NCBI RefSeq assembly: GCF_009663775.1
Contig: NZ_RDBR01000009.1
Span: 1-51,782 of the forward strand
DNA from: Lactobacillus sp. 0.1XD8-4
GTDB taxonomy: Bacteria > Bacillota > Bacilli > Lactobacillales > Lactobacillaceae
Direction of reading: 5' to 3'
DNA: 51,782 bases
Below the pieces are notes generated by a model, which worked only from the letters and a program-made list of their open reading frames with translations, was not told the origin of the DNA and made no database searches. Shown in pieces: positions 5,848 through 10,294 of the stretch. The first letter of the stretch is position 1. Each line of letters starts with the position of its first letter. The translations under genes and the position numbers were made by a program.

Positions 5848-6450
5848 ATGAAGCGTGCGGAACAATTAGAAAAAACAAGACAAGCAATTTTAAAAACCGC
5901 AACAAAATTATTTTTACAAAAAGGCTTTGGTGAAACTTCAACTCGTGATATTGCAAAACAAATTGGAATAACCCAGCCAGCCTTGTACCACCACTTCAGC
6001 GACAAGGAAGTTCTGTACCTTGATGTTATGACTAACTTATGTGGCAAAGTGCGTCAAGATATCAATAAGGTAATGAGAAAACATGACTTGACACCTAACG
6101 AACAATTATGGCAAATTACAAAAGCATTGAAAAAACATCATCCGTTGAGTATTTATGATCAATATAACCAGGCGATGCGGTTACTATCAAAAAGTGCCCA
6201 ACAGAAGCTTAATATGATTTTTACGATGGATTATTTAGAACCGATTGCAGCCTTTTTCCGTCAACCGGAAGTTGAGCTACGTCTGGATATTCTTCCTAAA
6301 GAAGCTGCCGAATTATTTATTGCTGGTTTAACACCAATTTTTGGTACTTCCCAATTAATTGGGGGGCATTCAATTACCCCAGAACAGCGTGACCAATTAA
6401 TCCTAGACTGCATTATTAATGGTTTGTCAAATTGGGGCGGAAAAGGATAA
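5848..6450 (+). CDS. TetR/AcrR family transcriptional regulator
   Basis: This is a 200-residue one-component repressor. The N-terminal helix-turn-helix (about residues 26-55, with TRDIAKQIGI and QPALYHHF) is the classic TetR DNA-binding signature. The remaining helical region would bind an unknown ligand and dimerise. It stands alone between clpC and rpoB, with no adjacent transporter or enzyme that would suggest a ligand. A GGGGATGA ribosome site precedes the ATG. The promoter region carries a palindrome likely to be its own operator. The strong rpoB promoter begins 20 bases after its stop, with no terminator of its own in between. Confidence 0.9.
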   Translation: MKRAEQLEKTRQAILKTATKLFLQKGFGETSTRDIAKQIGITQPALYHHFSDKEVLYLDVMTNLCGKVRQDINKVMRKHDLTPNEQLWQITKALKKHHPLSIYDQYNQAMRLLSKSAQQKLNMIFTMDYLEPIAAFFRQPEVELRLDILPKEAAELFIAGLTPIFGTSQLIGGHSITPEQRDQLILDCIINGLSNWGGKG

Positions 6451-6469: not shown

Positions 6470-6498
6470 TTGACAAAATTTAATAGAACTTATATACT
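6470..6498 (+). promoter_or_regulatory. Strong rpoB promoter P1
   Basis: TTGACA (6470-6475), a 17-base spacer and TATACT (6493-6498) make a near-consensus sigma-A promoter. Transcription should begin near 6505, leaving a leader of about 184 bases before rpoB. Confidence 0.88.
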
Positions 6499-6504
6499 TA
6501 AATA

Positions 6505-6688
6505 GTATGTAATTGTGAGTTCATTTGAATCTGGTGATCTATTGTCCATCAGATTCTGCATAAAAAGCCAAAGACAGTTAATTAACTGTTTTTGGATTTT
6601 TTTTGCTCAAAAGTTGCTTTTTTGGCAAATTGTAACCAAAATGTAACATTTAAATGTGCTCGCGGAATAAATTAGAGAGGTGAACAGT
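6505..6688 (+). ncRNA. rpoB leader RNA (candidate Lacto-rpoB motif) with attenuator
   Basis: Two hairpins are visible. The first pairs GAATCTGGTG (6527-6536) with CATCAGATTC (6547-6556). The second (6568-6580 with 6583-6595) is a 13-bp stem followed by eight T residues and looks like an intrinsic terminator inside the leader. Position and host group fit the Rfam Lacto-rpoB motif described upstream of rpoB in lactic acid bacteria; I could not run a covariance search. A second weaker promoter (TTGGCA 6622-6627, TAACAT 6644-6649, spacer 16) lies after the terminator. Confidence 0.65.
6568..6604 (+). terminator. Intrinsic terminator within the rpoB leader
   Basis: A 13-bp stem with one G-T pair is followed by a T8 run (6597-6604). 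It sits between promoter P1 and rpoB, so it either attenuates rpoBC or ends read-through from the tetR gene. Confidence 0.82.
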
Positions 6689-9600
6689 TTGGCTGGACAT
6701 TTAGTTAAATACGGTAAGCACCGTACCCGTCGTAGCTACTCGCGAATTAAAGAAGTTCTCGAATTGCCTAACCTTATTGAAATTCAAACCGATTCTTACA
6801 ATTGGTTTATGGATAAAGGTTTACGGGAAATGTTTGATGACATTATGCCAATTGATGATTTTCAAGGTAAGCTTTCCTTGGAATTCGTTGACTATCAACT
6901 TTTAGAACCTAAGTACACTGTTGACGAAGCTCGTGAACACGATGCTAATTACTCAGCACCACTTCATGTTACTTTACGGTTAACTAACCATGAGACTGGT
7001 GAAATTAAGTCCCAAGATGTATTCTTTGGTGATTTCCCACTAATGACTGACCAAGGTACTTTCATTATTAATGGGGCTGAACGAGTTATTGTTTCACAAT
7101 TAGTTCGTTCACCTGGTGTCTACTATAGTGAAGAAGATGACAAAAATGGTCGGCCAAACTACGGTGCTACTTTTATTCCTAACCGTGGTGCATGGCTAGA
7201 ATACGAAACCGATGCTAAGAATGTATCATACGTACGGATTGACCGGACCCGTAAGTTACCAATGACTGAATTAATTCGTGCATTGGGCTTTGGATCTGAT
7301 GACGAGATTATTGATATGTTTGGTGGCGATAGCGAAACGTTATCATTAACTTTAGATAAGGATGTTCACAAGAATACTGAAGACTCACGGGTTGAAGAAG
7401 CATTAAAGGACATCTATGAACGTCTTCGTCCAGGTGAACCAAAGACTGCTGATTCTGCACGAAGTCTTTTGACGGCACGGTTCTTTGATCCTAAGCGTTA
7501 TGATATGGCCCCAGTTGGTCGTTACAAGACTAATAAGAAGTTAATGCTGAAGTACCGTTTACTTGGTGAAACTTTGGCTGAGACTTTGGCTGATCCTGAT
7601 ACTGGTGAAGTTTTGGCACAAAAGGGCGACACAGTTACTAAGGAACTCCTTAAAAAACTAGAACCTTATCTTGATCGTGATGACTTTAAGACTATTACTT
7701 ATACACCATCTGATGAAGCTGTAGTTACTGAACCAGTTAAGCTTCAAAAGATTTTAGTATATTCTAAGACTGATCCTGATCGTGTTGTGCCAATCATTGG
7801 TAATGGTCACATTCCATTAGAATACAAGCATATTGAACCTGCTGATATCCTTGCATCATTAAACTACTTCTTTAACTTGCAAGAAGGTATTGGTACTACT
7901 GATGATATTGACCACTTGGGTAACCGTCGTATTCGTTCAGTTGGTGAATTACTTCAAAACCAATTCCGGATTGGCCTTGCCCGGATGGAACGTGTTGTTC
8001 GTGAACGGATGTCAATTCAAGATCCGGATACCGTTACCCCACAACAATTAATTAATATTAGGCCGGTAGTTGCTTCTATTAAAGAATTCTTTGGTTCATC
8101 GCAACTTTCCCAGTTCATGGATCAAACGAATCCATTAGGTGAATTAACTCATAAACGGCGTCTTTCTGCCCTTGGACCTGGTGGTTTAACTCGTGACCGT
8201 GCCGGATATGAAGTGCGGGACGTTCACTATACCCACTATGGACGGATGTGCCCAATTGAAACTCCTGAAGGGCCGAACATTGGGTTGATCAACAGTTTAT
8301 CCTCATATGCTCGGGTAAATAAGTACGGTTTCATTGAAACACCATACCGGCGTGTCTCCTGGAAAGACCACAAAGTTACTGATAAGATCGACTACTTAAC
8401 TGCCGATGAAGAAGATAACTTCATTATCGCTCAGGCTAACACCCCATTAAATGATGATGGTTCCTTTGTTGATGACCAGGTTATGGCTCGTGATAAGGAT
8501 GACTACATCGAAACTAGCGTGGAAAACATTGACTACATGGATGTTTCTCCTAAGCAAGTTGTTTCTGTTGCCTCTGCTTGTATCCCATTCCTTGAAAACG
8601 ATGACTCCAACCGTGCATTAATGGGTGCTAACATGCAGCGTCAAGCAGTCCCATTGATTAATCCGCATGCTCCATTAGTAAGTACTGGTATTGATTACAA
8701 AGCTGCCCATGACTCTGGAGTTGCTATGATTGCCAAGAAACCTGGGACGGTTGAATATGTGGATGCTCGTGAAGTTCGTGTTCGTGAGGAAGATGGTACT
8801 TTAGATACTTACAAGTTGATGAAGTTCCGTCGGTCAAACGGTGGTAAGAACTATAACCAACGGCCAATTGTTAAGGTTGGTGAACATGTTGATGCCGATG
8901 ATGTATTAGCAGATGGTCCGTCAATGGAACAAGGTGAATTAGCCCTTGGACAAAATCCATTGATTGCTTTCATGACTTGGCAAGGATACAACTTCGAAGA
9001 TGCCATTGCTATTAATGAACGGTTAGTTAAGGATGATGTTTATACATCTATCCATATCGAATCTTACGAATCTGAAGCACGTGAAACCAAGCTTGGACCT
9101 GAAGAAATGACTCGGGAAATTCCAAACGTTGGTGATGACGCGTTGAAAGACCTTGACGAAAATGGGATTGTACGTGTTGGTGCTGAAGTTCATGATGGAG
9201 ATATTCTAGTTGGTAAGGTTACGCCAAAGGGAATGACTGAATTATCCGCAGAAGAACGGTTGCTTCATGCAATTTTTGGTGAAAAGTCGCGTGAGGTTCG
9301 TGATACATCCTTGCGTGTTCCTCATGGTGGCGGCGGTATTATTCAGGATGTTAAGGTATTCACTCGTGAAAACGGTGATGAATTAGCTCCTGGTGTAAAC
9401 ACAATGGTTCGGGTATATATTGCTCAAAAACGTAAGATCCAAGTTGGGGATAAGATGTCTGGACGTCATGGTAATAAAGGTACTGTTTCAATTGTGGTTC
9501 CTGAAGAAGATATGCCATACATGCCAGATGGTACTCCTATCGACATTATGCTTAGTCCCATGGGTGTGCCTAGTCGTATGAATATTGGACAGCTTCTTGA

Positions 9601-10294
9601 ATTGCACTTGGGGATGGCTGCCCGTCGTCTTGGCATCCATATGGCTACTCCAGTATTTGATGGTGCTTCGGATAAAGATGTTTGGGATGCTGTTAGAGAA
9701 TCAGGATTCCCAGAAGATGGTAAGACGATTCTTTATGATGGCCGTACTGGTGAACCATTTGAAAATCGGATTGCCGTTGGTTCAATGCATTACCTTAAAT
9801 TAGCCCACATGGTTGATGATAAGATTCATGCTCGTTCAACTGGACCTTACTCACTTGTTACTCAACAGCCATTAGGTGGTAAGGCACAATTTGGTGGACA
9901 GCGGTTTGGTGAAATGGAAGTTTGGGCTCTTGAAGCATATGGTGCTGCTTACACCCTTCAAGAAATCCTTACTTACAAGTCAGATGATACTGTTGGCCGT
10001 GTTCGGACTTACGATGCAATTATCAATGGTCAACCAATTCCTAAGCCAGGTGTTCCAGAATCATTCCGTGTTCTTGTTAAAGAATTACAAGCATTAGGTC
10101 TTGATATGAAAGTTCTTGATGGAAATAATAAGGAAATTCAACTAAAGAACATGGACGAAGATGATGATGAAGTTGTTAATGTTGATGCTTTGGCTAAGTA
10201 TGCAGAGCAACACAAGACAGATGAAAAGAATAATGAAGAAGATAAGTCTGAAACAACTTCTACAACTACCGATGACAAGACTAATCAAAATTAA
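6689..10294 (+). CDS. rpoB: DNA-directed RNA polymerase subunit beta
   Basis: RpoB forms one jaw and much of the catalytic cleft of RNA polymerase. The 1201-residue protein shows the rifampicin pocket (about 467-505) with wild-type-looking Gln, Asp, His and Ser at the usual resistance positions. The conserved C-terminal switch region has [17 protein letters not shown] near residue 1070. The TTG at 6689 is the better start: GAGAGGTG ends seven bases before it and itself contains the upstream in-frame GTG at 6680. The last 50 or so residues form an acidic, Thr/Ser/Asn-rich tail that looks disordered. rpoC follows after 43 bases, so the two are cotranscribed. Confidence 0.97.

Follow-up and report, generated by a model that had tools for sequence, protein, structure and literature searches.

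What determines the amount of RNA polymerase in bacteria has long been an open question. It is raised anew by the DNA ahead of rpoB in Lactobacillus sp. 0.1XD8-4, within a window (the whole stretch of DNA that was analyzed) of 51,782 nucleotides from contig NZ_RDBR01000009.1. Which signals separate rpoB from the gene upstream, how widely are they kept, and could they control the supply of polymerase? The features on which the argument rests are as follows.

5848-6450: TetR-type regulator gene, upstream
6470-6498, + strand: promoter P1, TTGACA-17-TATACT, 11 of 12 consensus matches
about 6504-6505, + strand: predicted transcription start of P1, placed by spacing
6516-6574, + strand: Lacto-rpoB (RF01709) match from the Rfam covariance search
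6527-6536 paired with 6547-6556, + strand: 10-bp hairpin, from covariation and model R1
6537-6546, + strand: near-invariant decaloop AUCUAUUGUC
6568-6604, + strand: intrinsic terminator, with a 12-bp stem (6568-6595), one A, then T8 (6597-6604)
6622-6649: supposed second promoter TTGGCA-16-TAACAT, 9 of 12 matches, of chance quality and overlapped by the WalR-like box
6631-6647, + strand: WalR/VicR-type box TGTAAC-CAAAA-TGTAAC, from sequence and conservation
6674-6682, + strand: ribosome-binding site AGAGAGGTG, read from the sequence
6689-10294, + strand: rpoB, with TTG as its likely start codon

Leaders compared

The window was set beside loci L001-L170, giving 171 leaders. The RF01709 search supplied 30 loci and a further 60 (more places among the RF01709 matches listed), while 80 were fetched by the rpoB protein alone and were hence chosen independently of the letters TTGTC in the loop. 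Across the order, RF01709 matches at E 0.001 in 154 of 395 genomes, 114 of them above the cut-off. In total 168 leaders were counted, three with rpoB starts placed by hand. L168 was dropped, as its fetched stretch holds no rpoB start, and so were L024 and L026, whose loops lie more than 300 nt from rpoB. In these two Streptococcus-like loci several hundred bases separate the leader from rpoB (1712-2068 in L024), the distance from loop to start being about 790 and 920 nt, respectively, and the L024 spacer holds two copies of a 149-nt repeat. “Streptococcus-like” here denotes a group of 37 leaders whose terminator is of the CAGTTAAAT type, a label given by inference only. The comparison leaders contain 124 distinct hairpins.

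The N-terminus of rpoB is up to 99% identical to those of Limosilactobacillus species, and the window is taken on this ground to come from that genus. A GTG at 6680 falls within the ribosome-binding site. A caller that favors the best ribosome-binding site puts the start at a TTG in every one of the 168 counted leaders, and an ATG or GTG start is apparently used in L265, L270, and L285. Such a start codon, weak yet conserved, may provide further control of rpoB at translation.

Promoter P1 and the start of the leader RNA

The near-consensus promoter proposed in the sequence-only reading has stood up well to comparison. At the place of P1, a promoter with at least 9 of 12 matches is kept in 166 of 167 leaders (one leader being too short upstream) as compared with 115 of 501 shuffles, and one with at least 10 of 12 matches in 150 of 167 as compared with 17 of 501. 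Pattern counts do not set these signals apart, since the 2-kb region holds seven promoter-like sites where 8.1 are expected, and two terminator-like sites where 1.3 are expected; it is strength, conservation, and folding that make P1 and the terminator distinct. The first bases of the predicted RNA (6504-6520; GUAUGUAAUUGUGAG in many Limosilactobacillus) look similar within genera by eye, and in many Limosilactobacillus they contain an AUG-UAA start-stop pair. A leader peptide was considered and set aside, the short start-stop readings near the 5′ end varying between genera by eye.

The Lacto-rpoB hairpin and its loop

The agreement with the Lacto-rpoB motif noted from the sequence is borne out by the covariance model, marginally: RF01709 scores 40.4 bits, 0.4 bits above its gathering score of 40 (E 0.0025). 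It is the window's sole gathering-level Rfam match, and the matches of other Rfam families at the same place are all far under their cut-offs. Model R1, which describes the hairpin, gives 44.5 bits at 6523-6560, the window being among the sequences from which R1 was built. The claim of a structured leader also holds: positions 6504-6605 fold with a z-score of -5.2, and the hairpin stem covaries. In 73 non-redundant sequences each of the 10 stem pairs shows changes on both sides, 91.6% of stem cells are paired, and the covariation score is 0.989, against 0.267 after shuffling and no more than 0.278 after sliding. The innermost pair covaries too, being G-C in 117 and A-U in 7 of the 124 distinct hairpins.

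The ten-base loop hardly changes over the same hairpins. Only five variants occur among the 124, namely AUCUAUUGUC (61), AAAUAUUGUC (45), AUAUAUUGUC (9), AUCUCUUGUC (6), and AAAUCUUGUC (3), and L283 and L284 carry a sixth. In loci fetched with the RNA model the invariance of TTGTC is partly by construction, because the core was located by those letters; in the loci fetched by the rpoB protein, the loop core is present in 80 of 80, with 6-10 of the 10 stem pairs. This near-invariant loop, known from sequence comparison, argues for a factor that reads it. A possible pairing between the loop and a GGACA in the first codons of rpoB was examined by eye and set aside, because leaders whose rpoB lacks GGACA (L146, L283) retain the loop.

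Within the family, R1 matches 184 of 251 genomes at E 0.01, in 37 of 40 genera, each match being counted whether or not rpoB follows. Of the genomes missed by R1, 22 were queried for rpoB (20 of 67 such genomes in the family, and two genomes of the order from the class search), and 21 gave a match. Loop and terminator are visible by eye in 21 of these 21 extra leaders, whose ungapped stem counts are 4-8 of 10 in 19 and 10 in two. Outside the order, R1 gave eight weak matches in 398 genomes of the class, none of which precedes an rpoB start by eye over 420 nt. Two second R1 matches inside Lactobacillales genomes were inspected (G893 and G121), and neither lies before rpoB. The 168 counted leaders of Lactobacillales share one predicted architecture: a promoter, a covarying hairpin, and a terminator-like hairpin.

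The motif was described in 2010, and Table 1 of that work rates it as certain to be an RNA, as likely to be cis-regulatory, and as unlikely to be a riboswitch (PMC2864571). The window shares with it the hairpin, the loop, the position before rpoB, and the occurrence in Lactobacillales. However, the Rfam model ends in the first bases of the 5′ arm of the terminator, and the window's terminator and WalR-type box lie beyond it. In the literature found under its name or accession, in the portions available, no mechanism is given for Lacto-rpoB.

An intrinsic terminator between loop and rpoB

Directly after the Lacto-rpoB hairpin comes a second one followed by a T run. A 13-bp terminator with T8 had been read here; the terminator and its T8 are confirmed, while the stem is 12 bp long. 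Its folding energy is -14.6 kcal/mol (z-score -5.8), and 0 of 200 shuffles are equally stable. All 168 leaders have a terminator-like hairpin with a T run between the loop and rpoB, on a lenient scan that also yields something in 232 of 504 shuffled stretches. Stricter measures separate the two clearly: a terminator score of at least 15 is reached by 152 of 168 leaders against 9 of 504 shuffles, and the 5′ arm begins 11-27 nt past the loop core in 162 of 168 leaders against 35 of 504. In the remaining six leaders the scan picked another hairpin, and the expected terminator is visible by eye. The arms pair far better within their own leader (-13.3) than when swapped between leaders (-6.6; 0 of 30 swaps as strong). 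The terminator's sequence varies by lineage (CAAAAG and CAGCAGTTAAATC types, plus two more among L283-L286); since a terminator is nevertheless retained in each leader examined, selection appears to act on termination as such. Right after the T run (6605-6612), GCCnAAAA or GCTCAAAA recurs by eye in many Lactobacillaceae leaders, an element that exceeds what a terminator needs.

The earlier proposal that polymerase synthesis is attenuated here fits this order-wide conservation of promoter, hairpin, and terminator. We think that the leader is probably a premature-termination attenuator limiting rpoBC, with the loop as a docking site and a WalR-type box downstream. A terminator near Lacto-rpoB is not wholly new, because promoter and terminator signals are noted to accompany this and other families in Streptococcus agalactiae, in the part of that report available (PMC6064168). 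In the accessible text of an Enterococcus faecium transcript map, Lacto-rpoB stands in an expressed 5′UTR, and an early 3′ end is not given; that of a Streptococcus pneumoniae map of early terminators does not name rpoB. A further parallel is found in Escherichia coli, where read-through of an attenuator before rpoBC is held responsible for the response to rifampicin in the passages available (PMC6181997, PMC4670729). Both would be attenuators before rpoBC that uncouple polymerase from upstream transcription, but the E. coli one (rplL-rpoB) lies inside the rplKAJL-rpoBC operon, whereas in the window rpoB is preceded by a predicted promoter of its own and by a structured leader. The likeness is one of working, and kinship is not claimed.

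Must such an attenuator be regulated? The terminator could instead set a constant, low ratio of rpoBC transcription to initiation at P1, with the hairpin merely stabilizing or shielding the 5′ end. The presence of the terminator in all counted leaders speaks for this, as does the want of support for an antiterminator (see below), and the sequence data are also compatible with an unregulated terminator whose strength is constant. But a stem that only stabilizes would not need a loop restricted to five variants in 124 hairpins, and we consider fixed attenuation rather unlikely.

A WalR-type box in place of a second promoter

Between the terminator and the ribosome-binding site, the sequence-only reading had placed a second, weaker promoter. 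Its letters are indeed present, but they are of chance quality and the -35 is not conserved; what is conserved is the overlapping box. It consists of two TGTAAY half-sites 11 bp apart, starts 58 nt ahead of the rpoB start codon, and agrees exactly with TGTWAH-N5-TGTWAH, the consensus given for WalR/VicR in the available text (PMC4168254) and shared with the WalR/VicR regulon (PMC4168254, PMC10746227). The ChIP-based WalR motif of Staphylococcus aureus is looser than this pattern, as far as that paper is accessible (PMC10746227).

Of 94 Lactobacillaceae leaders, 88 carry the exact box (0.06 expected), as do 16 of the 37 leaders from six further families that are not Streptococcus-like, which makes 104 of 131 in all; no Streptococcus-like leader has it (0 of 37). 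If one mismatch is allowed, these numbers become 92 of 94, 35 of 37, and only 16 of 37. The same is seen once redundancy is removed: outside the Streptococcus-like group 32 of 46 leaders carry the exact box (0.10 expected) and 44 of 46 carry it with at most one mismatch (2.24 expected), and in the Streptococcus-like group the latter count is 5 of 9 (0.36 expected). Among the 21 extra leaders, 14 have the exact box, five have one mismatch, and two have four. Spacing is also kept, the half-sites of the 46 non-redundant leaders being five bases apart in 32, three in two, six in one, and none at 4 or 7-10. In several leaders of families f3 and f5, half-sites stand by eye at about 0, 11, 20, and 31, as if two boxes lay in tandem.

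Over this whole genome the pattern is not enriched, with 24 copies against 27 for the reversed control; 9 of the 24 are intergenic in a rough ORF scan. Besides the rpoB copy, four boxes precede two NlpC/P60 genes and one glucosaminidase gene, on the strand opposite to the gene, and such genes are the classical kind of WalR target. A LysM-NlpC/P60 gene of this genome (L183/L184, around 1500) has overlapping TGTWAH half-sites some 160 nt upstream, three of them in phase. All 18 genomes queried encode WalR (NF040534 above cut-off). They include the genomes of L285 and L286, whose boxes have one mismatch, and those of L283 and L284, which with four mismatches have no box; in these cases the lack of a box is not matched by a lack of WalR.

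As WalR boxes can overlap promoters, for example at gtfC in the text available (PMC4168254), rpoB might be transcribed mainly from a local promoter at the box, with the P1 RNA as a separate short RNA and the terminator insulating both. The distance of 58 nt from box to start codon would suit such an arrangement. However, in a search for a -35 at 16-18 bp from the TAAYAT of the box, the mean best match over the 88 exact-box leaders of Lactobacillaceae was 2.93 of 6 as compared with 2.48 in shuffles, and by eye no consistent -10 follows the box. A local promoter as the main source of rpoB is thus improbable.

WalR control of rpoBC, which the putative site suggests, is a proposal drawn from sequence. 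In the sections available, the direct targets of WalR in S. aureus include rplK, prs, dnaA, and further genes for growth, among them essential ones such as rplK (PMC10746227). The window differs from this regulon in that its putative site lies downstream of a terminator, before rpoB. Among the matches listed from a library with few subscription journals, no title or abstract opening dealt with a WalR box before rpoB.

How read-through might be set

The predicted product of P1, of about 100 nt, has a hairpin, an exposed conserved loop, and a terminator, and could be imagined as a small RNA acting in trans with the loop as its seed; since the full complement of the ten-base loop occurs at only three other sites in the genome as compared with two for the reversed control, this is very unlikely.

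A cis antiterminator was sought by comparing duplex energies between segments of the same leader (native) and of different leaders (swapped), using 55 non-redundant leaders out of 162 usable ones, the six with a mis-chosen terminator being excluded. The known stems behave as expected. In native leaders the 5′ end pairs less well with the terminator 5′ arm than it does after swapping (-2.58 vs. -3.26), and so does the loop (-2.74 vs. -3.04); for both pairings, every one of the 30 swaps gives a duplex of at least equal strength. Weak native excess is seen for the terminator 3′ arm with the 5′ end (2 of 30 swaps as strong) and with the stem 5′ arm (1 of 30), and for the terminator 5′ arm with the stem 3′ arm (4 of 30), figures that base composition shared within families can shift. 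A mutually exclusive antiterminator is not supported by these energies. A classical riboswitch-like attenuator built on one, although the layout resembles it and the three weak excesses point its way, is the least likely reading of all, given the 30 of 30 swaps on each of the two pairings with the terminator 5′ arm and the rating of Lacto-rpoB as probably not a riboswitch in the available 2010 description (PMC2864571).

Without support for a cis antiterminator, regulated read-through would need a factor acting in trans on the hairpin, and because the two hairpins do not compete, the loop is most likely the docking site. A model of the regulated attenuator can be proposed on this basis. RNA started at P1 would promptly fold the Lacto-rpoB hairpin, and the terminator would form about 1-17 bases after it (11 in the window), the two being independent modules and not competing folds. 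A share of the P1 transcripts would end before rpoB. A trans-acting protein may dock on the ten-base loop beside the RNA exit channel and set read-through; RNA polymerase and NusA/NusG, in line with the idea put forward in the sequence-only reading, are candidates, as would be another factor. Polymerases that pass the terminator would then reach the WalR-type box shortly upstream of the ribosome-binding site. WalR bound there could serve as a roadblock to them or influence a weak local promoter, with either sign of control conceivable. We tentatively suggest, at less than even confidence, that two stacked locks are at work, namely a loop-dependent attenuator sensing the transcription machinery, and a WalR box that couples rpoBC to cell-wall status via WalRK and is doubled into four half-sites in some families.

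Concluding remarks

With its order-wide terminator, Lacto-rpoB can be tested as an attenuator. A direct route from cell-wall sensing to polymerase supply is suggested by the WalR-type box, and would parallel the direct control of rplK in S. aureus described in the available text (PMC10746227). In these bacteria the supply of polymerase may therefore be under two separate controls, the attenuator and the WalR-type site.
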